Shown: in pieces, positions 17,548 to 33,428 of the stretch
Layout of the letters: every line of letters begins with the position of its first letter
How positions within the stretch are numbered: the first letter of the stretch is position 1
NCBI GenBank assembly: GCA_022711355.1
Contig: JAKLFE010000010.1
Location: 1 to 64,000, forward strand
DNA length: 64,000 bases
DNA from: Spirochaetota bacterium
Lineage (GTDB): Bacteria > Spirochaetota > Spirochaetia > Treponematales > Rectinemataceae
Reading direction: 5' to 3'
Translations under genes and position numbers: made by a program
The notes under the pieces: generated by a model
What the model was told of the DNA's origin: nothing
Seen by the model: the letters and a program-made list of their open reading frames with translations, nothing else
Databases searched by the model: none

Positions 17548-18342
17548 CTACAGGCCGCGCCAGAGCCGGGCGATCGCCTCCAGGGCGGCCTCGGAGGAGG
17601 CGGAGGGGGAGCACTCGAAGCCTACGTAGCCCTCGTAGCCCGCCTCGCCGAGGGCCGAAAGGACGGCATGCCAGTCGATCGCGCCCGTGCCCGGCTCGTG
17701 GCGCCCGGGGGCGTCCGCGACGTGGACGTGCTTGACGATCCGCGCGTAGCCCGCGACGAGGGAGAGCAGGTCGTCGCCCATCATGGCCTGGTGGTAGAAG
17801 TCGAGGAGGAGGCCGAAGCGCGGGTCGCCGACCTCGGAGACGAGGGCGGCCGCGGAGGAGAGCTTCGAGACGGCGTAGCCCGGGTGGTCCAGGGCGGTGT
17901 TGAGGGCCTCGATGCAGAGCGAGACCTCGACCCCGGCCGGTATGCGCCCGAGGAGGGCCCGGACGCAGGCGGCCATGGCGGCGATCTCGGAGGGGCCGGC
18001 CTCCCCGGGCCGAGGACGGAGGACCCTGCCTCCCTCGCCCAAGGACTGGGCGAGGAGCATCAGGTTCGGGCAATCGAGGAGGGAGCGCGCCTCCATGGCC
18101 GAGTCGAAGTCGGCGGCGACCAGGCCCCGCTGCGCGGGGTCCAGGAGGTCGCCCTCGCGGTGGCCGGAGAAGTTGGCCACCCGGACTCCGGCCGAACGGG
18201 CCGCGGCTGCGATGGCGGGGATGTCCTTGTCCTTCCAGGACCAGAACTCGACGGCGCCGAAGCCGGCGGAGGCGACGGCGGCGATCCTCTCTTCGTAGGG
18301 CAGCTCCTCGTGGAGCATCTCGATGCAGATGCAAGCTTCCAT
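17548..18342 (-). CDS. TIM-barrel sugar isomerase/epimerase (hydroxypyruvate-isomerase-like)
   Basis: A 264-residue AP-endonuclease-2-type barrel. Family metal ligands appear as EALN (about 150), LLLDFYHQ (about 180), VKHVHVADAPGRHEPGTG (about 210) and FECSPS near the end, closest to Hyi/OtnI. It is last in the sulfoquinovose locus, 101 bp after the second GH31 gene, so it may act on an SQ-derived or related sugar (for example 3-ketoglucoside/2-keto epimer) but its substrate cannot be read here. AAGGGGG lies 6 nt before the ATG. Confidence 0.82.
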   Translation of the reverse strand: MEACICIEMLHEELPYEERIAAVASAGFGAVEFWSWKDKDIPAIAAAARSAGVRVANFSGHREGDLLDPAQRGLVAADFDSAMEARSLLDCPNLMLLAQSLGEGGRVLRPRPGEAGPSEIAAMAACVRALLGRIPAGVEVSLCIEALNTALDHPGYAVSKLSSAAALVSEVGDPRFGLLLDFYHQAMMGDDLLSLVAGYARIVKHVHVADAPGRHEPGTGAIDWHAVLSALGEAGYEGYVGFECSPSASSEAALEAIARLWRGL

Positions 18343-18443: not shown

Positions 18444-20495
18444 TCAGGGGCGGGCGAAGAGCTCGACGAGGGAGGCGAAGAGGGGCGCGAAGGGGCTAAC
18501 CGCGCGGTAGAAGACCGGGGGCCGCCCGATCGGGGCCGGGAGCTCGAGCTCGCCCCCGCCGTAGGCCGCGCCGTCGAAGAGGCCGATCCAGGAGTCCTTT
18601 GGCAGGCGCAGCCTCCGCGCCCGGGCCCCCTCCGCGAGGACCGGGTAGACGGCGAGGTCGCGGCCGAGGAGGTAGGCGCGCTCCTCGTCGGGGCCGAAGC
18701 CCTCGCCGTAATGGAAAAAGAGGGGGCGCATCATCGGCAGCCCCCGCTCGAGATGCTCGCGTTGCGCGAACTCGAGGTAGGGGGCGAGGGCGGCGTGGAG
18801 CCGGCTCAGGCGGGCGACCGCCGCGACGGTCTCCGCGTCCGAGTCGAACTGCCAGTTGTCCCAGGGCCGGTTCCCCTCGTGGCTCCGCATCACCGGCATG
18901 AAGGCGCCGAGCTCGAGCCAGCGCAGGAAGAGCTCCTTGCCGCGGCGGATGCCCGGCAGGGTCGTATAGCCGCCTATGTCCGCGTGGACGATGCCGGCCC
19001 CGGACATGGCCAGGGAGAGGCAGGCCCGCACGACCGAGCCCAGGCCGTAGTCATCGCTCCAGTCGACGTGCTGGTCGCCGTTCCATAACAAGGTCGCATA
19101 ACGCGTACAGCCTGAATAGCCGCTGCGCGTGAAGAAGAGGGCCTCGCCCGAGGCCCCGGCCTCCTCGACGGCCTCGCGGTTGAGGCGGGCCCAAAGGAGG
19201 GGCCAGCGGTTGTGCCACTCCTCCCCTGAGCCGCCGGCGAGGATGGCGTCGGCGGGGAGGTACTCGCCGAAATCGGCCATCCAGCCCCGGAGGCCGAGGC
19301 CGAGGAGGTTCTCCTTGAGCAGGCCCTTGAGCCAGGCGTAGGCCTCAGGGTTCGTCAGGTCCACGATGCCGAAGGGGAAGCTCGTCGACTTCGTGAGGTA
19401 GGGCCCGCCCGCGGGGGAGAGGGCGAGGTAGCCCCGCTCGGCCGCCTCGGCGAAGAGCCGGCCGTCCTCGCAGAGGTAGGGATTGGCGTAGCCGAGGAAG
19501 GCCAGGCCCCGCTCCTGCCATTCGCGTATCTTCGCGGGGAGGCCCGGGTAGAGCCCCTGGTCCCAGCGCCAGTCCCAGCGCAGCTGCTTGCCGAAGTAGG
19601 TCAGCCGCTCGCCCTGCCAGTCCTGGGCCCAGATGCCGCAGACGGCGGCCCCGGCCTCCTCGAGGGCGCGGGCCTTGGCCTCGCAGGCCGCGGTCCCGCC
19701 CTGGATGCCGAGGATCATGCCCCCGTAGGCCCAGGAAGGCAGGGGGCCCTGGCGGCCGAGGAGGGAGCTGAGCCTGCCGACGAGCTCCGGATAGCCGGGG
19801 CCGCGGCCGAGGAGGATCCGCTCCGGGAGGCTCGAGAATCGTATACCGTGCCGATCCGGCCGGCGGAAGTCGAGGCTCCCGTAGGAGCCGCAGTCGACGT
19901 GGCAGAAGTAGCCGGCCGAGGAGACGAAGCTCGGCTGGGGAAAGTAGGTCGCGTAGCGGCGGAAGGCCCTGGTCCTCGGCCTTATTCCGAGGGCGAGGAG
20001 GAGGACCTTCCGTATCGCCTCGAGGGTGCCCACGTGCTCCTCGACCCAGATCCGCACGAGCTCGCCGCGGAGATCGAGCTTGGTGAAGTGCTCGCCGCAG
20101 CCGAAGATCCGCTCCTCGGGCCCGGCCGCGAGCTCGAGGGAAAAGGCGAGGCCGCGGCGCTCGGAGCGGGGGCGGAGGACCAGAAGTCCCCCCTCCTCCT
20201 CGACCCGGAGGCCGAGCTCGGGCCCGGGCTCCGCGGACCGGGCTCCGGGCCTTTTGCTCGGGCGGGCCAGCCGGAAGGACAGCTCCCAGGCCGAGTCCCC
20301 CCGGCGCTCGAAGCCCGCGAGCTCGAGGGCCGCGAGCCTCGTGCGGTCGCGGATGCGGAAGCGGCCCTTCCAGAGGCGGAAGCGCAGCCTCGGCTCGCCC
20401 GCGCGGAGGGCGGGGCTGGCCCTCGTGTGGCGGAGAACCGGCGCCCCCTCCCAGGAGAGGAGGAAGCCCCCGGGCAGGCGCTCGAGCTCGATCAC
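18444..20495 (-). CDS. GH31 sulfoquinovosidase-like enzyme, QQQWY variant
   Basis: A 683-residue cytosolic retaining alpha-glycosidase, clearly related to E. coli YihQ. Nucleophile D408 (WMADFGEYLP) and acid/base D474 (WNGDQHVDW) are present. Of YihQ's five sulfoquinovose-binding residues (Q262, Q288, R301, W304, Y508), four are kept as Q265, Q291, W307 and Y510, but the sulfonate-contacting Arg is Gln304 (FGKQLRW). It may therefore prefer a modified or different glycoside. Starts with an ATGA overlap on the GPH symporter gene, so substrate import and cleavage are coupled. Confidence 0.85.
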   Translation of the reverse strand: MIELERLPGGFLLSWEGAPVLRHTRASPALRAGEPRLRFRLWKGRFRIRDRTRLAALELAGFERRGDSAWELSFRLARPSKRPGARSAEPGPELGLRVEEEGGLLVLRPRSERRGLAFSLELAAGPEERIFGCGEHFTKLDLRGELVRIWVEEHVGTLEAIRKVLLLALGIRPRTRAFRRYATYFPQPSFVSSAGYFCHVDCGSYGSLDFRRPDRHGIRFSSLPERILLGRGPGYPELVGRLSSLLGRQGPLPSWAYGGMILGIQGGTAACEAKARALEEAGAAVCGIWAQDWQGERLTYFGKQLRWDWRWDQGLYPGLPAKIREWQERGLAFLGYANPYLCEDGRLFAEAAERGYLALSPAGGPYLTKSTSFPFGIVDLTNPEAYAWLKGLLKENLLGLGLRGWMADFGEYLPADAILAGGSGEEWHNRWPLLWARLNREAVEEAGASGEALFFTRSGYSGCTRYATLLWNGDQHVDWSDDYGLGSVVRACLSLAMSGAGIVHADIGGYTTLPGIRRGKELFLRWLELGAFMPVMRSHEGNRPWDNWQFDSDAETVAAVARLSRLHAALAPYLEFAQREHLERGLPMMRPLFFHYGEGFGPDEERAYLLGRDLAVYPVLAEGARARRLRLPKDSWIGLFDGAAYGGGELELPAPIGRPPVFYRAVSPFAPLFASLVELFARP

Positions 20496-21940
20496 CGCCC
20501 GGCCCCCATCTGGGCGTAGGGCTGGCCCGTTATGCGCTCGAGCTCTACGCGCTCGGCCTCGGGGGTCTGGCCCGAGGATCCCGCCCTCCGGCGCTCGAGC
20601 TCGGCCCGAAGGGCCGCGAAGCTCGCCGGGCTGACCGGGTAGCGGAGGGCGAGGAGGCCGCCCAGGGCGACGAGGGCCACCGGGGCGAGGGTGAACAGGA
20701 GGCGGAGGCCGAGGAGGGTCCCGGGCGGCTGGGCCGCCCCGGGGACGTAGCCGATGGCCTGGAGGAGGATGCCGACGAGCCAGAGCATGGCGGCCTGGAC
20801 GAGCTTGCGCGCGAGGGTGAAGGCCCCCGAGACCGCGCCGGAGCGCTGGATCCCCCGCGCGAGCTCGTCGGCGTCGGCCGACTCGGGGAGCATGGCCCAG
20901 GGCATGGCAGCGACGGCCGAGAGTCCGAGGCCGAGGGCGGCCGAGAGGCCGAGGAGGAGTGCCGTGGGGGCCCCGGGCCCGACGGCCGCGAAGGCCGCCG
21001 AGCCGAGGAGGAAGACGAGGGCGCCCAGGGCGTAGGCCCTCCCCTTGCCGAAGCGGTTCGCGAAGGCCAGGTAGGCCGGGAGGGCGAGGAGCTGGGCGAT
21101 GAGCATCGAGCCCAAGCAGAGGGTATAAGCCTCGCTCCGGCCGACGTAGTAGCTGAGGAAGTAGATGAAGAGGGCGGAGAGGATGTCGATGGCCGAGTAG
21201 CCCGCGAGGTAGAGCCCGACGTGGAGGCGGAAGGATCTGCAGCGAAGGAGGCTGCCCGTGTCGCGGAAGGAGGCGGCGAGGCTCGCGCTCGGCATCCGGC
21301 GCTCGGACTCGGGGAGCTCCCAGGTGCCGCGGTACACGAGGAGCCAGGGCAGGGCGAAGAAGAGGCCGAAGCCGAGGCCCATGACGAGGAAGCCCCGGCC
21401 CGGATCCTCGCGGTAGAGGTTCTTGACCAGGTAGCCCGGCAGCGTCCCCGCGAGGATGGAGGAGAGCTGGGAGAAGATCATGCGGGAGCCCGAGAGCCGG
21501 GTGCGCTCGCGGTAGTCATGAGTCATCTCCGTGGGCAGGGTCGAGTAGGGGATCATCACCATGGTCGAGACCGTGGCGAAGAGCATGTAGGCCCCGAGGT
21601 AGTAGAGGAAATCGAGGGTCGGATTCCCCGTGCGCACGCTCAGCCAGAGGAGGGCGAAGCTCGCGAAGACCGGCACGATGCCGGCGAGGAAGTACACGCG
21701 CCTGCGACCCAGGCGAGACCGGGTGCGGTCGGAGATGCAGCCCATGAGGGGATCGGAGACCGCGTCCCAGGCCTTGCCCGCGAAGACGACGAGGCCGGCC
21801 ATGGCGGGCTTGAGGCCGACCAGGTCGGTGAGGAAAAAAATGAAGAGGGTGCTGATGATGAGGAAGGAGCCCCCGCCGTAGAGGTCCCCGCAGCCGTAGG
21901 AGAGGAGGGCCGCCGCGCCCACCTTCCGCTCGTTCGCCAT
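20492..21940 (-). CDS. GPH-family (MelB-like) sugar:cation symporter
   Basis: A 482-residue transporter with about 12 membrane helices. The family signature is plain: GKAWDAVSDPLMGCISDRTRSRLGRR at about 50-77, with YSTLPTEMTHDYRERTRL later. YihO and YihP of E. coli SQ operons belong to the same family, so uptake of sulfoquinovose or its glyceride is likely. It overlaps the GH31 start by four bases and lies 24 bp after DUF4867. The locus therefore has two importers, this and an ABC system. Confidence 0.88.
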   Translation of the reverse strand: MANERKVGAAALLSYGCGDLYGGGSFLIISTLFIFFLTDLVGLKPAMAGLVVFAGKAWDAVSDPLMGCISDRTRSRLGRRRVYFLAGIVPVFASFALLWLSVRTGNPTLDFLYYLGAYMLFATVSTMVMIPYSTLPTEMTHDYRERTRLSGSRMIFSQLSSILAGTLPGYLVKNLYREDPGRGFLVMGLGFGLFFALPWLLVYRGTWELPESERRMPSASLAASFRDTGSLLRCRSFRLHVGLYLAGYSAIDILSALFIYFLSYYVGRSEAYTLCLGSMLIAQLLALPAYLAFANRFGKGRAYALGALVFLLGSAAFAAVGPGAPTALLLGLSAALGLGLSAVAAMPWAMLPESADADELARGIQRSGAVSGAFTLARKLVQAAMLWLVGILLQAIGYVPGAAQPPGTLLGLRLLFTLAPVALVALGGLLALRYPVSPASFAALRAELERRRAGSSGQTPEAERVELERITGQPYAQMGAGR

Positions 21941-21964: not shown

Positions 21965-22663
21965 TCAGTACTTGATCTCGATGTTCTCCCCCGCGATGCC
22001 CGGCCAGGCTCCCCGCTCCACCAGGACGGCCCGCTCGGGATGTGCCAGGATCCACTTGTTCCGCATGAACAGGAGCCGCGCCTCCCCGCCCGCGGCCCTC
22101 GCCGCGGCGAGCTCGGCCTCGGAAAGGGCCGCGTTCGTGCCCCGGGGCAGGACGCAGAGGTTGCGGAAGCCCCCCTCCTCCACCCTGCAGGCGGAGAGGT
22201 GGAGGACCCCCGGGTCGAGCTCGACCGCCTCGCCCCGCCGCAGGAAGAGGCAGCCGAGGAGGGAGGCGTCGTAGGAGGACCAGGCCGCGATATCCTTGCG
22301 CAGGCCGACGAGGAGGGCGAGGTCGCTCAACGCGACGACAACCTCGGGAGACTTGTGCCACTCCAGGCCGTTCAGGCGGCTGTTGGGGCCCGAGCACCAG
22401 CCGACCTGGACGGGCGAGAGGCCGAAGGCGGCCTCGAGCTCTCGGGCCGCGGGGAGGGACTCGAGCGCGGGCTCCGAGGCCTGGTAGCGGTTGGCCTCGA
22501 GGCCCCGGGGCACGAGGCCGTCGGCGGCGGCGAGGAGGGCGCCGATGCCGCGCAGCGCGAGGGGCCGGCCGTAGGCCGCGAAGGGCTCTTCGCCGGGACC
22601 GAAGATCTCGAGGCCGGGGTTGGCCGCCCGGAGCCTGCCTATGTCCATGGCGCCGCCTTTCAC
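21965..22663 (-). CDS. DUF4867 family protein
   Basis: A 232-residue cupin-like protein of DUF4867. Conserved landmarks: GWCSGPNSRLNGLEWHKSPE (about 107-126), DLALLVG, ELDPGVLHLSACRV, GTNAAL, RNKWILAHPE and the end GENIEIKY. The His/Glu/Asp pattern may bind a metal. The family is usually found next to sugar isomerase and kinase genes and has no known reaction to my knowledge; an isomerase, epimerase or mutarotase step on SQ or sulfofructose is a fair hypothesis. GTG at 22663 overlaps the exporter stop (GTGA); ATG at 22648 is an alternative. Confidence 0.85.
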   Translation of the reverse strand: MKGGAMDIGRLRAANPGLEIFGPGEEPFAAYGRPLALRGIGALLAAADGLVPRGLEANRYQASEPALESLPAARELEAAFGLSPVQVGWCSGPNSRLNGLEWHKSPEVVVALSDLALLVGLRKDIAAWSSYDASLLGCLFLRRGEAVELDPGVLHLSACRVEEGGFRNLCVLPRGTNAALSEAELAAARAAGGEARLLFMRNKWILAHPERAVLVERGAWPGIAGENIEIKY

Positions 22664-23388
22664 GAAGCGAGCATGACCGCCCCCGACAGAAGGAGGGCGG
22701 AGAAGACCACGATGGAGAAGGAGCGCTGCTCCACGCGGTCGTGGAGGCGCTCGCCGAGAAGGATGCCCGCCGCGAGGAAGGGCAGGAGGAGGCCGATGGT
22801 CCTGAGGCTCCCCGCGCCGAGCTCACCCGAGGCGAGGTAGGAGCCGATGATGATGGCGTTCAGGCTGGTCCACAGGAGGCAGAGGGTCGCCCGGAAGGCC
22901 CCCTTCTCGGGCAGCTCCCGGGAGGCGTAGAGGACGACGAGGGGACCGCCCGAGGAGAACATGCCGTGGACGATCCCGCCCGCGACGAGGAGGGCGTAGG
23001 CCGCCGCCCGGGGCAGGCGGCCCCCGGCCAGGCGGGGGAGGAGGAGCTTGGCGAGCTGGGCCGCCGAAGCGAGGACGATGAAGGCGGCCAGGGCCTTCTT
23101 GGCCGGAGCGGGATCGACGCTGCGGAAGAGGAGCATGCCGACGGGCAGGCCGGCGAGGACGAAGCCGAGGATGATCGCATAACGTTTGAAGTCGATGTCG
23201 CGCCGCTTGGCGATCGCGATGTAACTAGAGATGATAAAGGCGAGGACCGTGAGGACGAGGACCCCCTCCCGCAGGCCGAGGAGTGCGGTCACGAAGGGCA
23301 GGGCGAGGACCGTGCAGCCGAAGCCCGTGACCGCCTCGAGGGCGTGGGTCGCGAGGACGACGAGGCCCGCGAGGAGGATGGAGCTCAA
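22660..23388 (-). CDS. TauE/SafE-family membrane exporter
   Basis: A 242-residue protein with about eight hydrophobic helices and the TauE/SafE pattern HALEAVTGFGCTVLALPFVTALLG at 12-35 and a related half-repeat GGIVHGMFSSGGPLVVLY. The family exports sulfite and organosulfonates (TauE, sulfoacetate, sulfolactate), so here it probably exports the C3 sulfonate left after sulfoglycolysis. The start is a TTG overlapping the TGA of the dehydrogenase (TTGA); no ATG exists before the first helix. Confidence 0.85.
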   Translation of the reverse strand: MSSILLAGLVVLATHALEAVTGFGCTVLALPFVTALLGLREGVLVLTVLAFIISSYIAIAKRRDIDFKRYAIILGFVLAGLPVGMLLFRSVDPAPAKKALAAFIVLASAAQLAKLLLPRLAGGRLPRAAAYALLVAGGIVHGMFSSGGPLVVLYASRELPEKGAFRATLCLLWTSLNAIIIGSYLASGELGAGSLRTIGLLLPFLAAGILLGERLHDRVEQRSFSIVVFSALLLSGAVMLAS

Positions 23389-24566
23389 GCCTTGGCCTCG
23401 AGGAAGGCGTAGACCGCCTCGGGCTCGGCCGCGGGCCTGGTGTTGGCCATCTTCGGATCCTCGAAGGCCCGGGCGAAGCGGCGGCGCAGCTCGCCGGGCC
23501 CGAGCTCGACGCCGAGCTCGCGGAAGCTCGAGGGAAGGCCCATCGCCGCCTTCAGCTCGAGGATCCGGCCGAGGAGGGCCTCGGCCCCCCTTCCGGGCGG
23601 GACGCCGAGGGCCGCGGCGCCGACCCGGCCGAGGCGCGCCTCTATCGCGGGATCGCGCCGGGCCCAGCGGAGGCAGTCCTCGATGCTGAAGGCGCAGGCC
23701 GCCCCGTGGGGGACCCGCCACTCCTCCGTCAGCACGAAGGAGAGGGCGTGGCCCATGGCCGTGCCGGTGATCCCGAAGGCGAAGCCGGCCATGGCCGAGG
23801 CCTCGAGCATGGCGAGGGCGGCGGCCGGGTCGGGCCGGCCGCCCGCGGCGAGGGCCCGGGCCGCCTCGTAGGAGCGCGGCAGGCGGCCGAGGACGGCGAC
23901 GGCGGCCTCGGTCGCGGCCTCGATAGTCGCCGGCGCGGCGTTGCGGTTCCACAGGGACTCGAGGGCGTGGTCGAGGGCGTCGAAGCCCGTCGAGGCGGCG
24001 AGCTCGGGCGGCATGGCCGCGGCGAGGGCGCCCACGAGGAGGGCGGCGTCGGCCTGGAGGAAAGGGGAGCCGAGGGTATGCTTGCGCCCCGTGCCGTCGC
24101 GGTAGACCCCCACCTTCGTGACCTCGGCCCCGGTGCCGGCCGTGGTCGGCACCAGGAGGAGGGGCAGGCCCTTGGCCTCGAGGCGGCGGGAGGGGGCGGG
24201 GCCGAGGCAGTCCGCGAGGCGGGCGCCCGGCGCGGGGGCCAGGGCCGCGAGGGCCTTGGCCGAGTCGAGGACCGAGCCGCCCCCGATCCCGACCAGGAGC
24301 TCGGCGCCCGCGAGGGCCCCGGAGCCGAGCATCGCGTCGATGTCCGAGGCCAGGGGATCGGGGCTCACGCGGTCGAGGAGGACCGTCTCGTAGGCCCGCC
24401 GCAGGCCCGCGACGAGGCGCTCCCGCTCGGGGAAGGGCCGCCCGTCGACGAGAACGGCGACCTTGGCCGGGCCGCGGCCGAGGTAGGCGACGGCCTGGGC
24501 GAAGTCGGCGGGGGAGAGGTCCTCGAAGGAGAGTACCCGGGTCGGGCAGAGGAGGGAGCTCAGCAT
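23385..24566 (-). CDS. iron-type alcohol dehydrogenase, probable sulfolactaldehyde reductase
   Basis: A 393-residue group III (Fe-ADH) dehydrogenase. The N half binds NAD(P) (GIGGGSVLDSAKALA near 93); PTTAGTGAEVTK follows; metal ligands are D and H of GFDALDHALE (about 195) and the His of GTAMGHAL and RVPHGAA. In the proposed pathway it reduces 3-sulfolactaldehyde to 2,3-dihydroxypropane-1-sulfonate, regenerating NAD+, as Fe-ADHs do in some fermentative SQ degraders; this is inferred from context. Confidence 0.85.
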   Translation of the reverse strand: MLSSLLCPTRVLSFEDLSPADFAQAVAYLGRGPAKVAVLVDGRPFPERERLVAGLRRAYETVLLDRVSPDPLASDIDAMLGSGALAGAELLVGIGGGSVLDSAKALAALAPAPGARLADCLGPAPSRRLEAKGLPLLLVPTTAGTGAEVTKVGVYRDGTGRKHTLGSPFLQADAALLVGALAAAMPPELAASTGFDALDHALESLWNRNAAPATIEAATEAAVAVLGRLPRSYEAARALAAGGRPDPAAALAMLEASAMAGFAFGITGTAMGHALSFVLTEEWRVPHGAACAFSIEDCLRWARRDPAIEARLGRVGAAALGVPPGRGAEALLGRILELKAAMGLPSSFRELGVELGPGELRRRFARAFEDPKMANTRPAAEPEAVYAFLEAKA

Positions 24567-24575
24567 CCCCGGCCC

Positions 24576-25052
24576 CTAGCGGAGGTTCCGCGCTTCGATG
24601 GCGGCCACCTCTTTGAGGGCATTGGCGAGGAAGTCGCGCTTGAACTCCATCTTCTGGGCGAAGGACATCGCGAGCCAGGCCTCGACGATCTGGCAGCCGA
24701 GGAAGGGGGCGGTGATCCAGCCGCCCAGGGTGATCACGTTGGCGTCGTTGACGATCTTGGCCCGCTCGCCCGAGAAGATGTCGTCGACCACGCAGGCGTA
24801 GACGCCCTTGTGCTTGTTGGCCACGATGGCCATGCCCTGGCCCGTGCCGCAGACGAGGATGCCCCGCTCGGCCTCGCCGCGGCGGATGGCCTCGGCCACC
24901 TTGGGGGCCTGGACGAAGTAGGGCTCGGGATGCTCGGGATCGGCTATGCCGAAGTCGAGGAGCTCGATCTCGGGGTGCTTCTCGGCGAGATGCTTGGCGA
25001 TCTCGCTCTTGAGGGGGAAGCCGGAGAGGTCCGATGCGATGGCGAGTTTCAT
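24576..25052 (-). CDS. RpiB/LacAB-like isomerase
   Basis: A 158-residue aldose-ketose isomerase of the RpiB fold with the catalytic Cys in VCGTGQGMAIVANKHKG. Two residues that handle phosphosugars in E. coli RpiB are changed: the DH of its CDHVG is DL (SDLSG), and the His of QHND is Val (IVNDAN). In the transketolase-type SQ pathway an RpiB-like enzyme isomerises 4-deoxy-4-sulfoerythrose to its ketose; this gene's place next to split transketolase genes fits that role. Overlaps the upstream gene by ATGA. Confidence 0.85.
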   Translation of the reverse strand: MKLAIASDLSGFPLKSEIAKHLAEKHPEIELLDFGIADPEHPEPYFVQAPKVAEAIRRGEAERGILVCGTGQGMAIVANKHKGVYACVVDDIFSGERAKIVNDANVITLGGWITAPFLGCQIVEAWLAMSFAQKMEFKRDFLANALKEVAAIEARNLR

Positions 25053-26002
25053 GCGTTCTCCTTGACCTTGGCCGCGAGAAGCCGGCGCGCGGCCTGCGCT
25101 ATGTCCTCGGCCCGGAGGCCGAAGCGCTCGACTAGGTACTCCTGGGTTCCGACCTCGCCGAACTCGTCGCGCACGCCGACCCGGGCCAGCCGCGCCGCGC
25201 CCGTCTCGGCGAGGAGCTCGGCGAGGGCCGAGCCGAGGCCTCCGGCGACTTGGTGGTTCTCGGCGCTCAGGACGGCCCCGCTCCTCCGCGCCTCGGCGAG
25301 GACGAGGGCGGCGTCGAGGGGCTTCAGGGAGAGGGCGTCGATCACCGAGGCGGCGATGCCTTCGGCCGCGAGGAGCTCGGCGGCGCGGAGGGAGTTCCGG
25401 ACCATGAGGGCCCCGAGGGCCACGATGCAGAGGTCCCCGCCCTCGCGGAGGAGCTTGGCCTTCCCGACCTCGAAGCTCTCGCCCTCGGCGTAGAGCGGCT
25501 CGACGGCCTTGCGGTGGAGGCGCAGGTAGGCCGGGCCCGGCCGCGCGGCGAGCTCGCGGATCAGGGCCGCGAGGGAGAGGGGGTCCGAGGGCTCGACGAT
25601 GTCCAGGCCGGGGACCTCGCGCATGAGGCCCAGGTCCTCGAAGGGCATGTGGGTGCCCCCGTTGTAGGCCGCGGTCACGCCGGGGTCGGTGCCCACGAGC
25701 TTGACCCCCAATCGAGCGTAGGCGCAGGAGACGAAGAACTGGTCGAAGACCCGGCGCGAGGCGAAGCAGCCGAAGCTGGCCGCGAAGGGGATCTTGCCTT
25801 CGGCGGCGAGGCCGGCCGCCACGCCCACCATGTTGGCCTCGGCCACCCCGAGGTCGAAGAGGCGCTCGGGATAGCGCTCCTTGAACGAGGCCGTGCCGCT
25901 GGCCCGCATGAGGTCGGCCTCGAGGAGGACGATCCTCGGGTCGGAGGCGGCGAGCTCGGCGAGGGCCGCGGCGTAGACCGCGCGCATTTCCTTGGCTGCC
26001 AT
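25049..26002 (-). CDS. transketolase, C-terminal subunit
   Basis: A 317-residue protein equal to the pyrimidine-binding and C-terminal domains of transketolase. Seen: RAVYAAALAELAASDPRIVLLEADL, the conserved Glu of FDLGVAEANMVGVAAGLA (activates thiamine pyrophosphate), and GTHMPFEDLGLMR. Two-subunit transketolases are common, but this pair is embedded among SQ genes, so the substrates are inferred to be 6-deoxy-6-sulfofructose and 4-deoxy-4-sulfoerythrulose with glyceraldehyde 3-phosphate as acceptor. Begins 2 bp after the N-terminal subunit. Confidence 0.92.
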   Translation of the reverse strand: MAAKEMRAVYAAALAELAASDPRIVLLEADLMRASGTASFKERYPERLFDLGVAEANMVGVAAGLAAEGKIPFAASFGCFASRRVFDQFFVSCAYARLGVKLVGTDPGVTAAYNGGTHMPFEDLGLMREVPGLDIVEPSDPLSLAALIRELAARPGPAYLRLHRKAVEPLYAEGESFEVGKAKLLREGGDLCIVALGALMVRNSLRAAELLAAEGIAASVIDALSLKPLDAALVLAEARRSGAVLSAENHQVAGGLGSALAELLAETGAARLARVGVRDEFGEVGTQEYLVERFGLRAEDIAQAARRLLAAKVKENA

Positions 26003-26004
26003 GC

Positions 26005-26847
26005 CTAGATCCTCCCGCCGAAGCCGAGCTCGGCTATGGCCTTCTTAGCCGTCTCGTAGTCGAGGTTCATGTTGTGGCTCGAGGCCTGGCCCTCGCAGAA
26101 CGAGGCCCCCTTGCCCTTCACCGTGTCCAGGACGATCATCGAGGGCCGGCCCGAGGACGCGCCCTCGGCGGCGGCCCGGCCGACCGCCTCGGCGATCGCC
26201 GCCACGTCGTGGCCGTCCACGCGCTGCGCGTACCAGCCGAAGGCGGCCCACTTGGCGCCCAGGTCCCCGAGGTCCATCACCTCGGCCGTCGGGCCGTCGA
26301 TCTGGAGCTTGTTGCAGTCGGTGAAGGCGACGAGGCGCGATAGGCGAAACTGGCTCGCGGCCATGGCGGCCTCCCAGACCTGGCCCTCGTCCGACTCGCC
26401 GTCGCCCAGGACCGCGTAGACCATGTTCGAGCGCCCGTCCAGGCGGTTCGCGAGGGCGATGCCGACCGCCGCGGAGAGGCCCTGGCCCAGGGAGCCCGTG
26501 GTCATGTCGACGCCGGGGGTCCGGTTGCGGTCGCAGTGGCTCGGGAGCCTCGTGCCGCCCTTGTTCAGGGTATGGAGCCACTCGCGGGGGAAGAAGCCCC
26601 GGGTCGCGAGGGCGGCGTAGAGGGCCGGGCCCGCGTGGCCCTTCGAGAGCACGAGGCGGTCGCGGCCCTCCCAGCGGGGATCGGCCGGGTCGACGCGCAT
26701 GACCTGGTGGTAGAGGACGGCCAGGAGCTCGACCACGGAGAGGGCGCCGCCGACATGGCCGACCCCGAGGAAGCCGATGGCGTCCAGGGTCAGGGCGCGG
26801 ATTTCCCTGGCCGCCTCCTCGAGCCTCGACCGGTCATCGGCCCTCAT
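26005..26847 (-). CDS. transketolase, N-terminal subunit
   Basis: A 280-residue thiamine-pyrophosphate-binding half. Landmarks: GFLGVGHVGGALSVVELLAVLYH, LSKGHAGPALYAAL, TTGSLGQGLSAAVG and the TPP/Mg motif GDGESDEGQVWEAAM...NKLQIDG at about 155-195. Works with the following gene as an alpha2beta2-type enzyme that removes two-carbon units from a ketose. The ATG overlaps the stop of the isomerase (ATGA), making it part of the SQ operon; a housekeeping transketolase should exist elsewhere if this one is specialised. Confidence 0.92.
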   Translation of the reverse strand: MRADDRSRLEEAAREIRALTLDAIGFLGVGHVGGALSVVELLAVLYHQVMRVDPADPRWEGRDRLVLSKGHAGPALYAALATRGFFPREWLHTLNKGGTRLPSHCDRNRTPGVDMTTGSLGQGLSAAVGIALANRLDGRSNMVYAVLGDGESDEGQVWEAAMAASQFRLSRLVAFTDCNKLQIDGPTAEVMDLGDLGAKWAAFGWYAQRVDGHDVAAIAEAVGRAAAEGASSGRPSMIVLDTVKGKGASFCEGQASSHNMNLDYETAKKAIAELGFGGRI

Positions 26848-28160
26848 TCGGCCACCTCCCAGCCCTTGAGGCGGGCGGCGAGTCGGAGGGGGGCGGAATA
26901 GGAGCCGTAGACCGCGGAGGCGTGGTGGGCGAAGCCCTTGTACACGATGAGGTCGAGGAGCTCCTTCACGGGGCGGCCGAACTCGACCTTGGCGTAGGTG
27001 CCCGAGAGCTCCTTCTCCATGGGCAGGGCCCTCCCCTCCTGGAGGAGGAGGCGGCGCTTGCCGCGGGCCGAGTCGAGGCGGGCGATCGAGACGGGCCCGG
27101 CCTTGAGGACGAAGCCCGCGGTCACGCCCCTGCCCCCGGCGAAGTAGGTGTCGAGGCTCCGCTTCGAAACGCCGTCCCAGAGGTTGCAGGGGGCCACCCC
27201 GCAGTGCCACAGGAGGGCGTAGTTCTTCTCGAGATCGACCTGGGAGAAGTCGAAGAGGAAGGGCGTCTCGCCGCCGACGGCGCGATGCGCGATCATGGAC
27301 AGGGCCCCCTCGAGGTCTCCCTCGCAGGCCAGGAGGCGTCCCTCGGACTGGAGGAGGGACATGGCGGCGCAGGGCGCCACGCCGTAGTCCCGGGCGAACT
27401 CGGGCCAGCAGCGGATGGCCAGGGCCGTGAGGCCCGTCCGGCCGCAGAAGGCGTCGATCCGGGCGGCGAGCTCGGCCACCTTGGCGACCTGGGCCTCGGT
27501 GACCCCGGAGCAGTCGAAGGTCCCCCGGAGCTGCTCCCGGCGCAGCTCGAGGGCCGAGGGCGCGGCCGGCTCGGCGTAGAGCTCCGAGAGCTCGAAATGG
27601 TCGACCAGGGCCCCGACCTCGCCGAAGAGCTCGGTGTCGGAGACCCCGAGGTTGAAGAAGCCGTGGGCCCGGTCGCCGGCCACGCCGACCCGTGCCCTCC
27701 GGAGGGCGGCGATGGCGCGTATCGCGTCCACCCAGGTCTCGTCGATGCCCGGCCCCACGGAGGCCGTGTAGTCGTCCACCCCCGACTTGTAGAGGTTCGA
27801 GGCGTCGAGGTTGACCCCGCAGACCGAGTTGAGCCTGATCTTGCCCCCGTCGTAGGGCAGCTCGGGCAGGCCCCAGAGGAGGAAGGGGAGGCGGAGCTCC
27901 GAGCGCAGCTCGAGGACGAGGTGGCCCAGGTGGAAGGTCCCCGACAGGCACACCATGCCGTCGAGGCCGGCCGCGGCCAGGCGGGCGGCCGCGCGCCGCG
28001 CGTCCTCCACGGAGATGACGAGGCCGGGCAGCGCCTCCCAGTCGACGTTCTCGAGCCTCGAGAGCTCGCGTACGAGGCCCTCGTAGATGGCCGCGGCGGC
28101 CTTGTGGTCGAAGGTCTCGCGCGCGAGGCAGACGAGGCCGAGCTTGATCCGCTCCTTCAT
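26844..28160 (-). CDS. L-fucose/arabinose-isomerase-like sugar isomerase, probable SQ isomerase
   Basis: A 438-residue protein of the FucI/AraA fold. N-terminal Rossmann-like domains (KLGLVCLARETFDHKAAAAIYEGL; MVCLSGTFHLGHL) precede the catalytic half with ALAIRCWPEF, CEGDLEGALSMIAH (metal Glu/Asp) and the late His in LLWHCGVAP. As first gene of the operon that continues into transketolase, it is the natural candidate for sulfoquinovose to 6-deoxy-6-sulfofructose. ATG at 28160 has AAGGAAGG just upstream and follows the ROK-type operator. Confidence 0.87.
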   Translation of the reverse strand: MKERIKLGLVCLARETFDHKAAAAIYEGLVRELSRLENVDWEALPGLVISVEDARRAAARLAAAGLDGMVCLSGTFHLGHLVLELRSELRLPFLLWGLPELPYDGGKIRLNSVCGVNLDASNLYKSGVDDYTASVGPGIDETWVDAIRAIAALRRARVGVAGDRAHGFFNLGVSDTELFGEVGALVDHFELSELYAEPAAPSALELRREQLRGTFDCSGVTEAQVAKVAELAARIDAFCGRTGLTALAIRCWPEFARDYGVAPCAAMSLLQSEGRLLACEGDLEGALSMIAHRAVGGETPFLFDFSQVDLEKNYALLWHCGVAPCNLWDGVSKRSLDTYFAGGRGVTAGFVLKAGPVSIARLDSARGKRRLLLQEGRALPMEKELSGTYAKVEFGRPVKELLDLIVYKGFAHHASAVYGSYSAPLRLAARLKGWEVAE

Positions 28161-28337: not shown

Positions 28338-29543
28338 CTAGGCGAGGAAGAAGGCGTCGAGGACGAGGTCGGCGGCCCCGCGCTGGGCGAGGGCCGGGTC
28401 GTAGGCCCTGCCGTGGAAAGCGGGGAGGACCCGGTCGAAGCCCGAGCCCGCCTCGGCGATCCGCGCGCGGACGCGGCCGGCGAGGCCCTCGGCCACCTCG
28501 GCCGAGGCGGCGACGAAGAGGTAGGAGGCCGGCTCGAAGAGGCGGGAGACCGTGCGCGCGGCCGAGGCCAGGGAGGCCGAGGCCTCGTCGAGGACGGAAG
28601 CGGCGGCCGCGGCCCGCTTCCCGCCCGCGGCCAGCTCGGGGCCGAGGCCCTCGAAGAGCCAGCGCCCGGCGTCGAGGTTGCCGCGGTCGAGGGCGCAGAG
28701 CCGGGCCTCGAGGCAGCCCCGGGAGCCGCAGGGGCAGTCGGGCCCGTCCAGGGAGACCGAGAGGTGGCCGGTCTCGATGGTGCGGCCGCGGGAGGTGAGG
28801 TGGAGGCGGCCGGAGTCGACGAAGGCCCCGTTGACCCCGGAGCGGAGGAGGAACATGAAGGTCGAGTCTTCCTCGCCCAGGTCCCCGTGGCGGAACTCGC
28901 TCAGGGCCACGACCGAGCAGTTGTTGTGGATGGTCACCGGGAGTCCCAGCCTCGACTCGAGGCGCTCGGCCGCGGGGAAGTCCGTCATGCCGGGGATGCG
29001 GGCGTAGAAGGAGACCGCGCGGCGGCCGACGTCGACCTGGCCCGGGGCCCCGAGGCCGAGGCCGAGGACCCGCTCCGTGGCGATCCCGAGGCCGGCGAGG
29101 GCCTTCGAGACCCGGGCGGCCACGGTGGCGAGGACCTTCTCGGCGCCCTGGGCGGGATCGAGGGGGAAGACCTTGGAGTAGAGGGCCCGGCCTCGGAAGT
29201 CGAAGACCCCGAGGGAGAGGCTGCCGGCCCAGAACTCCACTCCGACCAGGACGCAGGCCTCGGCGCGGGCCAGGTAGGAGGCGGGGCGCCTGCCCTTGCG
29301 CTCGGAGCGGCCGGCCGGGACCGCCTCGGCCGCGCCCTGGGGCGCCAGCTCGATGTAGCCGGCGGCCTCGAGGGAGGAGAAGATGCGGAAGATGGTCGGG
29401 GCCTTGAGGCCCGTGGCGGCGACGGCCTCGGACTGGGAGAAGCCCCGATCGCCCGAGCCGTGGATGAGGCGGAGGACCAGCTTCTCGTTGCGCTCCCGCA
29501 CGTCGGAGGCGCGCAGGGGGTTCTGCTCGGGTGACATCGCCAC
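28338..29543 (-). CDS. ROK-family transcriptional repressor
   Basis: A 401-residue XylR/NagC-type regulator: N-terminal winged helix (about 15-65, FSQSEAVAATGLKAPTIFRIFSSLEAAGYIEL), then the ROK sugar-binding/kinase-like domain with LGLGLGAPGQVD and the zinc motif CPCGSRGCLEAR (about 268-280). Repressors of this class release DNA on binding sugars; the ligand is probably SQ or sulfofructose. It is the last gene of the ABC/SQase operon and most likely binds the two ATTTACTTwC-N5-GAAAGTAAmT operators. GTG at 29543 follows the GH31 stop by 4 bp; ATG at 29537 is possible. Confidence 0.88.
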   Translation of the reverse strand: MAMSPEQNPLRASDVRERNEKLVLRLIHGSGDRGFSQSEAVAATGLKAPTIFRIFSSLEAAGYIELAPQGAAEAVPAGRSERKGRRPASYLARAEACVLVGVEFWAGSLSLGVFDFRGRALYSKVFPLDPAQGAEKVLATVAARVSKALAGLGIATERVLGLGLGAPGQVDVGRRAVSFYARIPGMTDFPAAERLESRLGLPVTIHNNCSVVALSEFRHGDLGEEDSTFMFLLRSGVNGAFVDSGRLHLTSRGRTIETGHLSVSLDGPDCPCGSRGCLEARLCALDRGNLDAGRWLFEGLGPELAAGGKRAAAAASVLDEASASLASAARTVSRLFEPASYLFVAASAEVAEGLAGRVRARIAEAGSGFDRVLPAFHGRAYDPALAQRGAADLVLDAFFLA

Positions 29544-29547
29544 GATA

Positions 29548-31683
29548 CTACGCCGGCGGGCGGCCGGGAGGCAATGCGCCCCCCGCCGCTCCCGCGGCCG
29601 GGGCGGCTCCCGCGGGCCCCGTCTCTCCGGCAGCGGCCGCGGCGGCCCGGCGGAAGAGCCCGGCCCAGGGCGAGCCCGCGCGATAGAAGGCCGGGGGCCT
29701 CCCGATCGTCGCGTCGGCCTCGAGATCGAGGCCGGCCGGCGCCGGCGCGCTCAAGCGGGGCCCGCCCCAGAGGGGGAGCCAGTCCCCGGGCGGGAGGTGG
29801 ACCGTCCGTGAGCGGGCGAGCTCGCGGATCACGGGCGCGACGAGGAGGTCGGGGCCGAGGAGGTACTCGTCCTTGATCGACCATGCGGCCTCGTCCTCCT
29901 CATGCTCGAGGAAGACCGGCCGCATCACCGGGATGCCCCGCTCCGCGTTCTCGGCGACGGCCGCCTTGAGGTAGGGCTTGAGGGCGACGTGGAGGCGGCC
30001 CATGGAGGCCAGATGGGAAAGGGTCTCGGCGTCGGAGTCGAACTGCCAGTTGTCCATGGGACGGTTCCCCTCGTGGCCGCGCATGAGGGGGGAGAGGGCA
30101 GCCTGTTCCGCCCAACGCATGAAAAGCTCCTTCGTGCGCTTCATGCCGTAGAGGGTGGTGTAGCCGCCGATGTCCGAGTGCGAGAGCCCGTGGCCCGAGA
30201 GGCCGAGGGAGAGGGCGGCGGGGATCACCGAGGGCAGGCCGTCGTCCTCCGACCAGTCGACGTTCTGGTCCCCGGCCCACATCATGGGGCACTGGCGCTG
30301 GGAGCCGGGCCCGCCGGCGCGCATGAAATAGAGGATCTCGGCGGCGGCCTCGGGGCCGCAGGCGTCCACGGCCTCGCGGTTGCAGCGGGCCCAGAGAGCG
30401 GGCCAGGCGTTGTGCGCCTCCTCGGCGCTCTCGCCCGAGGCGAGGATGGCGTCGGTGGGCAGGTACTCGCCGAAGTCGGCCATCCAGCCGGATAAGCCGA
30501 AGCCGAGGAGGTTCCCGCGGATGACCGACTTATACCACTCGAAGGCCGCCGGGCTCGTCAGGTCCACGATGCCGGCCTCGAACTCGCCGAAGTCGACGAG
30601 GTAGTCGGCCCCGGACCCGTCCTTGGCCAGGAAGCCGCGCTCCCGGGCCTCGAGGAAAAGGCTCCGATCCTTGGCGAGATAGGGGTTGATGTAGCCGAGG
30701 AAGCGGACGCCCTCGCCCTGGAGCCGGAGGATGGCCTCGTCGAGGCCGGGGTAGCGCTCCCGGTCCCAGACCCAGTTCCAGCGCAGGCGCTGGCCGAAGG
30801 AGGTCAGATTGATGCCCTCCCAGTCCTGGGCCCAGATCCCGCAGACGGGGACCCCCGCGGCCCGGGCGGCCCCGAGCTTGGCCAGCACGGCCTCGGTGCC
30901 GCCCTGGACCCCGAGGATGACCCCGTCGTAGGCCCAGTCGGGCAAGAGCCCCTGGCGGCCGAAGAAGGCCGATAGATCCTCGACGATGCCGCGCATCGTG
31001 CCCGCCGAGCCGACTACCAGGCGCTCGGGCAGGGCCCAGGCGCGCAGCTCGTGGCGCTCGGGGGCGCGGAAGTCGAAGGCGGCGTAGGCGCTCGTGTCGA
31101 GGTAGGCCCAGAGGCGGCGCGAGGAGACGAAGCTCGGCTGGGGGAAGAAGGTCCAGAAGTAGTCTCCCCCCGAGCCGCCCTCGGCGTCGGCCAGGCGGGT
31201 GATCTCGGTGGCCTTGTTGCGGCCCACGCCCTGCTCGCTCGTCCACAGGGGGAACTCGCGGCCCCGCAGGTCCAGGTAGGAGAACTGCTCCCCGCAGCCG
31301 TAGACCTTCTCGGCGGCCTCGGCGACGAGGCGGAAGGCCCAGCGGTCGGCGAGCCGGGCCGCCTCGTCGCCCGCCTCGAGGCGCAGGACCAGGCGGCCAT
31401 CCTCGATCGCGCAACGCGCGATGAGGATGTGCCTCCCTCCCGCCGAGAAGCGGACGATGGCCGCCTCCCTGGAGGACTCGAGGAGCTCGGCCTCGCGCAG
31501 CTCGACGGACTCGAGCTCCCGGTCGGAGATCCGGAAATTGCCCCGGTTCATCTCGAAGCTCCCCTCGCCGCGGCCGGCCCGGGCGAAGGGGGAGGCGGCC
31601 GAGTGCCGGATGACGGGCTTGCCGTCGAGCCTGAGCTCGAGGGAGCCCGGGCCGGCGGAGACCGAGAGGCGGCTAAAGGCCAT
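29548..31683 (-). CDS. yihQ: sulfoquinovosidase, GH31 (YihQ-like)
   Basis: A 711-residue glycosidase releasing sulfoquinovose from sulfoquinovosyl glycerol/diacylglycerol headgroups. It aligns closely with E. coli YihQ: nucleophile D403 (WMADFGEYLPTD), acid/base D472 (WAGDQNVDWS), and all five SQ-binding residues, Q260, Q286, R299, W302 and Y508 (YihQ Q262, Q288, R301, W304, Y508). No signal peptide, so it acts in the cytosol on imported glycosides. The last 25 or so residues are a low-complexity Ala/Gly/Pro tail. Starts 6 bp after the second permease gene. Confidence 0.93.
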   Translation of the reverse strand: MAFSRLSVSAGPGSLELRLDGKPVIRHSAASPFARAGRGEGSFEMNRGNFRISDRELESVELREAELLESSREAAIVRFSAGGRHILIARCAIEDGRLVLRLEAGDEAARLADRWAFRLVAEAAEKVYGCGEQFSYLDLRGREFPLWTSEQGVGRNKATEITRLADAEGGSGGDYFWTFFPQPSFVSSRRLWAYLDTSAYAAFDFRAPERHELRAWALPERLVVGSAGTMRGIVEDLSAFFGRQGLLPDWAYDGVILGVQGGTEAVLAKLGAARAAGVPVCGIWAQDWEGINLTSFGQRLRWNWVWDRERYPGLDEAILRLQGEGVRFLGYINPYLAKDRSLFLEARERGFLAKDGSGADYLVDFGEFEAGIVDLTSPAAFEWYKSVIRGNLLGFGLSGWMADFGEYLPTDAILASGESAEEAHNAWPALWARCNREAVDACGPEAAAEILYFMRAGGPGSQRQCPMMWAGDQNVDWSEDDGLPSVIPAALSLGLSGHGLSHSDIGGYTTLYGMKRTKELFMRWAEQAALSPLMRGHEGNRPMDNWQFDSDAETLSHLASMGRLHVALKPYLKAAVAENAERGIPVMRPVFLEHEEDEAAWSIKDEYLLGPDLLVAPVIRELARSRTVHLPPGDWLPLWGGPRLSAPAPAGLDLEADATIGRPPAFYRAGSPWAGLFRRAAAAAAGETGPAGAAPAAGAAGGALPPGRPPA

Positions 31684-31689
31684 CGGCGC

Positions 31690-32547
31690 TCAGCCCTTCA
31701 CCGCGCCGGCCGTGAGGCCGGCGACGATCTTGTCGTGGAGGAAGGCGTAGGCGAGGACGGTCGGGGCGATGGAGAGGACGATGGCGGCGAACATGCCCGT
31801 GTAGTCGGTGACGAACTGGCTCGTGAAGAAGCGGATGCCGAGCTGGATGGTCCGCGCGGAGAGGCTCGAGGTGAGGAGCATCGCCATGAGGAACTCGTTC
31901 CAGGCGTAGATGAAGCAGAAGGTGCCCGCGGTGACGAGGCCCGAGCGGGAGAGGGGGAGGACCACCTTCCAGAAGCGGCCGGCGAAGCCGCAGCCGTCGA
32001 TGATGGCCGCCTCCTCGAGCTCCTTGGGCACCGTGCGCATGAAGGAGCTCACCAGGAAGACCGAGACGGGGATGTTGATCGCGGCGTAGACGAGAACGAG
32101 GGCGGCCAGCTTGTCGTAGAGCCCCGCGCGGGTCATGAGGGTGAAGTAGGGCACCATGAAGGCGATGAGGGGCACGAGGACCCCCGCGGTCAGGGCGGTG
32201 TGCAGCGCCTCGCGGCCGCGGAAGGACTCGCGCGCGAGGGCGAAGGAGGCCAGGGAGGCGACCGCCAGGTTGAGGGCGACCGCGCAGGCGGCCACGAGGA
32301 CCGAGTTCGCGAAGAGCCGGGGCAGGTCGGCCGTGGCCAGGGCGGTCGCGTAGTTCGCCAGGCTCGGGCGGGCGGGCAGGGCGAAGGGCGCTGCCTCGAG
32401 CTCGAGGTTGGTCTTGAGCGAGTTGACCAGGAGCCAAGCCAGGGGGAGGAGGGACACGAGGAGGAAGAAGCCGAGGAAGGCCCACATGGCGAGCCTCGCC
32501 GCGGCTCGCCCGGTGGTCATGGTTTCGCGCATCGCGTCCTTCCTCAT
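31690..32547 (-). CDS. ABC sugar permease, MalG type
   Basis: A 285-residue inner-membrane permease with about six helices and the ATPase-docking EAA loop (LEEAAIIDGCGFAGRFWKVVLPL, about 190). It forms the import channel with the MalF-type subunit before it. ATG at 32547 overlaps the preceding stop (ATGA); ATG 32532, with AGGAAGG 5 nt upstream, is equally likely. No ATP-binding subunit is encoded in the window. Confidence 0.92.
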   Translation of the reverse strand: MRKDAMRETMTTGRAAARLAMWAFLGFFLLVSLLPLAWLLVNSLKTNLELEAAPFALPARPSLANYATALATADLPRLFANSVLVAACAVALNLAVASLASFALARESFRGREALHTALTAGVLVPLIAFMVPYFTLMTRAGLYDKLAALVLVYAAINIPVSVFLVSSFMRTVPKELEEAAIIDGCGFAGRFWKVVLPLSRSGLVTAGTFCFIYAWNEFLMAMLLTSSLSARTIQLGIRFFTSQFVTDYTGMFAAIVLSIAPTVLAYAFLHDKIVAGLTAGAVKG

Positions 32548-33428
32548 TGGGCGGCCTCGGCCAGGGGATCGCCGCGGCCGAGGGCCCGGCGCAGGGCCGC
32601 CACGAGGACCGTGCCCAGGAGGATGAGGATCATGCCGGCGGCGCTCGCCTCGCCGTAGCGCAGGGCGTCCATCTTGAGGTACAGGGCGATGCCCATGGTC
32701 GAGGTGGAGTAGGCCGGCCCGCCCCCGGTCATGAGGAAGGTCGACTCGAAGTGGCGCATGCCGTAGGCCATGGCCAGGGTGACGCAGGTGGCCAGGCTCC
32801 CCCGGAGCATGGGCAGCGTGATGCGGAGCTCCTGGACCAGGGTCGAGGCCCCGTCGATCTGGGCCGCCTCGTAGAGCTCGCGCGGGATCGAGAGGGCCGC
32901 GGCGAGGAGGATGATCATGTAGTAGCCGATGTAGACCACGGTCTGGAGGATCACCGCGGCGAGGGCGGTCGAGGGATCGCCGAGCCAGTGCCGCGCAGGC
33001 AGGCCGACCAGGCCGAGGAGGGCCTTGAAGGCCCCGTACTGGGGGTTGTAGAGGGTCACCCAGACCATGGCCAGGGCCACGGTGGAGATGACGTTCGGGA
33101 GGAAGTAGATCGTCCGCAGGAGCCGCCAGCCCCGGGGCCCCCGGGCCAGGATCATCGCGACGAGGGCGGCCAGGGGCACCTGCACGAAGCCGGAGGCCAG
33201 GGCCCATATCGCGTTGTTCCGCATGGCCAGGCGGAAGGAGGAGTCGCCGAGGAGCTTGGCGTAGTTCGCGAGGCCGTTCGGGCTCATCCCCCCCCCGCCC
33301 TTCCACCTCATCAGGCTCGTGACGAGGGTGAAGCCCAGGGGGTAGAGGAAGAAGGCGGCGAAGAGGAGGAGCGCCGGCGCGAGGAAGAGGGCGATCAATC
33401 CTAGGTTGCGGTTTCCGTGCCGGCGCAT
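32544..33428 (-). CDS. ABC sugar permease, MalF/UgpA type
   Basis: A 294-residue permease with six predicted membrane segments and the EAA loop YEAAQIDGASTLVQELRITLPML at about 190-213. It pairs with the following permease and receives substrate from the binding protein encoded 13 bp upstream. By context the cargo is sulfoquinovose or sulfoquinovosyl glycerol. Confidence 0.92.
   Translation of the reverse strand: MRRHGNRNLGLIALFLAPALLLFAAFFLYPLGFTLVTSLMRWKGGGGMSPNGLANYAKLLGDSSFRLAMRNNAIWALASGFVQVPLAALVAMILARGPRGWRLLRTIYFLPNVISTVALAMVWVTLYNPQYGAFKALLGLVGLPARHWLGDPSTALAAVILQTVVYIGYYMIILLAAALSIPRELYEAAQIDGASTLVQELRITLPMLRGSLATCVTLAMAYGMRHFESTFLMTGGGPAYSTSTMGIALYLKMDALRYGEASAAGMILILLGTVLVAALRRALGRGDPLAEAAQ

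Follow-up and report, generated by a model that had tools for sequence, protein, structure and literature searches.

Sulfoquinovose (SQ), which sulfoquinovosidases release from plant sulfolipid, is among the most abundant organosulfur sugars. In E. coli YihQ, R301, W304 and Y508 are presumably the sulfonate ligands, and Arg301 is a hallmark by which GH31 proteins are recognised as sulfoquinovosidases (SQases). All solved GH31 sulfoquinovosidases that we found by sequence have this Arg, namely YihQ, E. rectale SftG (6PNR), the B. megaterium enzyme (8R56) and the Agrobacterium enzyme (5OHS/5OHY). A literature search returned no paper joining YihQ with R301. One route for the released sugar is the sulfo-transketolase (sulfo-TK) pathway, for which PMC9594981 describes SqvD, SqwGH, SqwI, SqwF and a DUF4867 protein (SqvB). 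In the cow rumen, according to PMC13219744, two YihQ copies occur in Mariniplasma and in some Ca. Limivicinus, and a long branch with one of the two Mariniplasma copies holds 64% of yihQ amplicons in one assay and 47.5% in the other. A term search of that paper found no active-site residue analysis, nor does it treat Arg/Gln pairing or transporter partners. A clade-wise change at a sulfonate-binding position, in distinct gene clusters, is described in PMC11465081 for the SQase family GH188, and resembles what we report below for GH31. However, GH188 is an unrelated NAD-dependent family, in which the contact is made via a backbone nitrogen and binding is expected to remain intact.

Here, we analysed two GH31 genes, GH31-A and GH31-B, in a window of 64,000 nucleotides (the whole stretch of DNA presented above) from a Spirochaetota bacterium. 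Both belong to one co-directional run on the minus strand, whose genes mostly abut or overlap (Table 1). The SQ isomerase, split transketolase, RpiB-type isomerase, iron-containing alcohol dehydrogenase and exporter that together identify a sulfo-TK pathway were found in this one cluster, and the gene set matches that of PMC9594981. By its gene content, the operon is predicted to encode a complete sulfo-TK pathway, which places both GH31 enzymes beside a predicted sink for SQ. The SqvD, SqwGH, SqwI, SqwF-type and DUF4867 genes are shared with the sulfo-TK pathway of Clostridium sp. MSTE9 (PMC9594981); unlike in that organism, two GH31 genes and two transporter types appear to feed the pathway of the Spirochaetota operon. 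The same gene set, with one GH31 of the Arg form (R-form) and one of the Gln form (Q-form) and without the GPH gene, occurs in Spirochaetota bin79 (L006/L183, also G004 and G418). The TIM-barrel gene at the end of the run had no counterpart in the syntenic locus L183.

Table 1. Features of the minus-strand gene run, with positions in the window
Feature	Position	Strand	Basis
Hydroxypyruvate-isomerase-like TIM barrel, last gene of run, membership uncertain	17548-18342	-	TIGR03234 below cut-off, PF01261
GH31-B, QQQWY (Arg-less) sulfoquinovosidase-like alpha-glycosidase	18444-20495	-	profile, alignment, tree, predicted fold
Gln304 codon of GH31-B (equivalent of YihQ Arg301)	19584-19586	-	computed from GTG start at 20495
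GPH-family (MelB-type) cation symporter, proposed partner transporter of GH31-B	20492-21940	-	TIGR00792/PF13347, adjacency pattern
DUF4867 protein (SqvB/SftX)	21965-22663	-	PF16161, 170 bits
TauE/SafE-type exporter (SqwE-like, putative isethionate exporter), start uncertain	22660-23388	-	PF01925
Iron-containing alcohol dehydrogenase (SqwF-like sulfoacetaldehyde reductase)	23385-24566	-	PF00465/PF25137; NF050025 below cut-off
RpiB/LacAB isomerase (SqwI-like)	24576-25052	-	PF02502; TIGR00689 above cut-off
Transketolase C-terminal subunit (SqwH/G-like)	25049-26002	-	profile search
Transketolase N-terminal subunit (SqwG/H-like)	26005-26847	-	profile search
FucI-fold SQ isomerase (SqvD/SftI-like)	26844-28160	-	NF048012, 182 bits, below SftI equivalog cut-off of 700; PF02952
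ROK-family regulator	28338-29543	-	PF00480
GH31-A, canonical QQRWY sulfoquinovosidase (R299)	29548-31683	-	PRK10426, 887 bits
ABC sugar permease	31690-32547	-	homologous permeases adjoin R-forms elsewhere
ABC sugar permease	32544-33428	-	homologues adjoin R-forms elsewhere
ABC solute-binding protein	33442-34698	-	PF01547; closest solved relatives are oligosaccharide-binding proteins

GH31-B reads as an ORF of 683 aa and begins at a GTG that overlaps the stop codon of the GPH gene upstream of it. It retains the GH31 domains and scores 700 bits against NCBIfam PRK10426/YihQ (NF007746), a model that carries the name alpha-glucosidase and has a cut-off of 553. Alignment to E. coli YihQ equates Q265, Q291, W307 and Y510 of GH31-B with Q262, Q288, W304 and Y508, and Q304 with R301; the GH31 catalytic nucleophile and acid/base, equivalent to D405/D472, are also present. 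The five pocket residues are those named in a preliminary description of this DNA, which was equally right about R299 of GH31-A. The latter protein also has W302. GH31-B has the QQ (or KE) pair, Trp304 and Tyr508 that characterise the YihQ type. However, Q304, K369 and S372 occupy the places of Arg301, Asp/Glu366 and Glu369, and we therefore file it in a variant sister clade and not as a canonical SQase. Arg306 of GH31-B, at the position of YihQ Met303, was considered as compensation for Gln304 and rejected, since GH31-A also has Arg there. The AF2 model of GH31-B (pLDDT 90.5) is best matched by 8r56 and 5oht (TM 0.92), and other GH31 enzymes fit it far worse than the solved SQases do (TM about 0.70 vs 0.92). 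Predicted fold, catalytic Asp pair, Gln262/Gln288, Trp304, Tyr508 and an operon setting with an SQ isomerase are thus shared with the GH31 SQases. What sets GH31-B apart from them is Gln for Arg301, the lack of an acid at 366 and of Glu369, H476 two residues past the acid/base, and the loop at YihQ 146-183, which is rewritten and in which H154 and K163 are invariant.

The QQQWY motif is not a private oddity of one genome, an idea rejected because Gln is fixed throughout a clade of 49 members, well beyond what chance would give. A first set of relatives held 79 QQRWY and 45 QQQWY proteins. The set was then enlarged to 164 proteins, all with Trp304, both catalytic Asps and either QQ or KE; at position 301 (YihQ numbering), 99 of them carry Arg and 65 carry Gln. 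Asp or Glu at position 366 is found in 98/99 R-forms and is absent from 63/65 Q-forms, whilst Glu369 is present in 94/99 R-forms vs 0/65 Q-forms; four KERWY enzymes show the same coupling of 301, 366 and 369. The alignments indicate that the difference between the two forms is a coupled residue set and involves more than one position. There are only two R/Q changes on the whole tree, so the Fisher value for this coupling overstates the independent evidence. Adding up the charges at 162, 301, 366 and 369 gives about -1 for R-forms and +1 for Q-forms; the local charge of Q-forms is not lower because two acids go along with the Arg. Gln301 is common in predicted SQases, and Arg was present in every solved or kinetically proven GH31 SQase that we found.

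A tree was built leaving out the diagnostic columns. On it, 49 Q-forms, GH31-B amongst them, are set off by a branch with support 100, and 95 R-forms group apart from these together with YihQ and GH31-A. The preliminary description had asked whether QQQWY proteins form a separate clade; they do, and the clade is deep. Its members have in common V151, H154, K163, Q304, T371 and H476 (GH31-B numbering), nearly absent in R-forms, as well as the rewritten loop. A further 18 Q-forms branch outside the main clade, and those inspected retain a YihQ-like GVGR loop. When the tree is rooted with other GH31 proteins of the same genome the earliest branches are Q-forms; Gln may tentatively be taken as the more parsimonious ancestral state and Arg as derived, on outgroup branches that are long. 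GH31-B had been described as swapping Arg for Gln, of which the Gln stands and the implied polarity is doubtful, as the rooted tree favours Gln as ancestral. Orthologues of GH31-B in other genera share 58-66% identity. One of them, in the draft genome G007 (L088/L184), is broken by an in-frame TAG. Deep-branching Q301 proteins also occur in distant spirochaete families (L139-L141, L175, L176), in contexts without sulfoglycolysis genes, and two of these have signal-peptide-like N-termini.

The genomic setting of the Q-forms bears on their role. A Q-form is the only YihQ-type GH31 in 26/30 genomes reached via Q loci (25/29 for the main clade), where 'only' means the only one found, several of the sampled genomes being draft assemblies. 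A clear SQ isomerase was identified in 26 of the 28 main-clade genomes searched (24 of SftI type, 2 of SqvD type), mostly adjoining the Q gene. Pseudobutyrivibrio ruminis, in which the Q-form is the sole YihQ-type GH31, Butyrivibrio and others carry the Q gene in sulfo-TAL operons with a GPH symporter, transaldolase, a dehydrogenase of the sulfolactaldehyde (SLA)-reductase type, DUF4867, an SftI-type isomerase and ROK, and in some cases a TauE exporter. Moreover, a Q-form from outside the main clade is the only GH31 of a sulfo-TK operon in G371 and G400 (L179, L180). Where a main-clade Q-form is the sole YihQ-type GH31 and lies within an SQ-isomerase operon, its product must feed SQ catabolism. 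The sole glycosidase feeding an SQ pathway would most likely release SQ, and main-clade Q-forms are thus likely to act on an SQ glycoside.

About 24 sampled genomes pair an R-form with a Gln301 copy (Izimaplasma-type genomes, 13 Spirochaetota and two Lachnospiraceae), and two R-forms together were found in none of these two-copy genomes. Amongst ten Izimaplasma-type genomes with the family, nine have two copies, always one R and one Q. Because of this pairing, the long rumen branch of PMC13219744, with its reference protein BK011_07555, is likely, by analogy with these genomes, to be the Q clade. In the two-copy genomes ABC permeases lie within 1.5 kb of the R gene in 16/21 cases, and a GPH symporter lies by the Q gene in 13/19 and ABC permeases never, although, owing to shared ancestry, fewer of these cases are independent. 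At single-copy loci, GPH adjoins the R-form in 24/43 and ABC in 4/43, and Q-forms are beside ABC permeases in 0/29. A transporter split as a general rule is rejected by this single-copy control and holds for two-copy genomes only. For these, we infer two entry modules for SQ glycosides, one of ABC importer and R-form and one of GPH symporter and Q-form. The preliminary description had read the Arg and Gln forms as a split of substrates. The coexistence of R and Q with their own transporter types, and never of two R, is as such a split predicts; the modified glycoside that it named as one option may be one with another aglycone, and the desulfo substrate that it also proposed is taken up below.

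We regard it as fairly likely that GH31-B is a retaining alpha-glycosidase of family GH31, that its clade is distinct from and sister to the YihQ sulfoquinovosidases, and that it cleaves an SQ glycoside supplied by the GPH module. Its sequence retains both catalytic Asps and all but one of the five SQ-pocket residues, whilst Arg301, the acid at 366 and Glu369 of YihQ are replaced as a unit by Gln, a neutral or basic residue and Thr or Ser. The clade has added invariant H154, K163, T371 and H476, and its N-domain loop is rewritten and basic. In our proposed scheme the adjacent GPH symporter would import an alpha-sulfoquinovosyl glycoside, GH31-B would cleave it, and the SQ would pass to the SqvD-type isomerase and then to the sulfo-TK enzymes. 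GH31-A and the ABC importer would handle SQ-glycerol or a similar glycoside. Instead of Arg, Trp307, Tyr510, the three Gln and possibly Lys163 would probably hold the sulfonate; that Lys163 or the extra His residues have taken over its binding is offered as a proposal only. The two modules would supply one pathway, and may differ in aglycone, affinity or transport.

A second reading is that GH31-B is simply another SQase for the same SQ glycoside (SQ-glycerol), differing in affinity range or transporter linkage, with Arg and Gln as neutral alternatives. We give this somewhat less than an even chance, and it overlaps with our preferred explanation, under which the two enzymes may differ in any of several ways. 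The Q-form does stand in for the R-form in complete sulfo-TAL operons, and likewise alone in the sulfo-TK operons of L179 and L180, where SQ-glycerol is the obvious natural substrate. However, the two-copy genomes, with their R and Q copies and distinct transporter types, suggest a maintained difference, as do the clade's own invariant residues.

An improbable reading is the one first put forward for this gene, that the substrate of GH31-B is a desulfo glycoside or some other alpha-glycoside lacking the sulfonate. It would account for the lost sulfonate Arg, and no SQ isomerase was found in the genomes of the basal Q301 proteins of f49/f36 or in G151, which has Gln and lost the isomerase that its R-bearing sisters retain. 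Therefore, Gln alone does not prove a role in SQ metabolism. However, the desulfo substrate was not borne out in the main clade, since in most of its sampled genomes the Q-form is alone and within an operon with SQ isomerase and sulfo-TAL or sulfo-TK genes, and the loss of Arg is matched by the loss of two acids. The f27 genus was considered as a clean natural R-to-Q swap, and this was weakened by the loss in Q-bearing G151 (L122/L172) of the SQ isomerase and transketolase genes near the GH31 and of most of the operon; Arg-bearing members of the same genus (L127, L130, L132, L133) retain the SQ isomerase.

GPH symporters also carry uronides. Such transport, together with the Lys and the two His that the clade has gained at positions of its own, would fit a GH31-B that acts on some other sugar with an anionic substituent at C6 (a uronide, a sugar phosphate glycoside or a different sulfosugar) entering the same pathway. 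We think this as improbable as a desulfo substrate, as the operons carry SQ-type enzymes (SftI/SqvD, SftT, SftR, the TK pair) and their conserved core held no enzymes for uronates or other sugars. That GH31-B is a decaying or inactive paralogue is very improbable: the interrupted G007 orthologue and the loss of the motif in some third-copy paralogues point that way, but the GH31-B gene is full length, overlaps its neighbour, keeps its catalytic residues and clade-invariant columns intact and is conserved in other genera.

Taken together, the comparisons describe a deep Arg-less sister clade that probably still acts on SQ glycosides, and whose members often accompany a canonical enzyme and have an importer unlike that of their partner. 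The clade is large and was previously unremarked, and the presumed family hallmark Arg301 is probably not universal. Should Q-forms be SQases, annotation by this hallmark would overlook a deep clade on which many Lachnospiraceae and Oscillospiraceae depend for their sole SQase; should they not be, many of the predicted SQ degraders carry a wrong annotation. The recurrent pairing of R and Q with separate transporters offers a simple testable system of two enzymes and two importers for one pathway. More tentatively, and with rather more doubt than confidence, we hypothesise a second class of GH31 SQase that binds the sulfonate without Arg, pairs with GPH symporters, acts on an SQ glycoside other than that of the Arg enzymes, and serves many gut and sediment anaerobes as their sole SQase or as a complementary one, possibly accounting for most rumen YihQ diversity.

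Lastly, more divergent copies were seen. Some spirochaete second copies carry further changes (QQQWF, QQQWN, GRQWC). L226-L228, L230, L233 and L234 are second copies from other spirochaetes in which Gln301 is combined with Phe, Asn or Cys in place of Tyr508, and those of L230, L233 and L234 are beside a GPH symporter and away from sulfoglycolysis genes. Gln301 copies with an altered Tyr508 are possibly a further substrate class. The genome of the window itself has another YihQ-like paralogue (C42:31926-33929; L005, L189) that has lost the QQ.WY motif. Relatives of this paralogue occur in the spirochaete family (L103, L104, L137, L237-L240), some having lost a catalytic Asp, and in G010 such a motif-less paralogue directly adjoins an SqvD-type SQ isomerase (61% identity).
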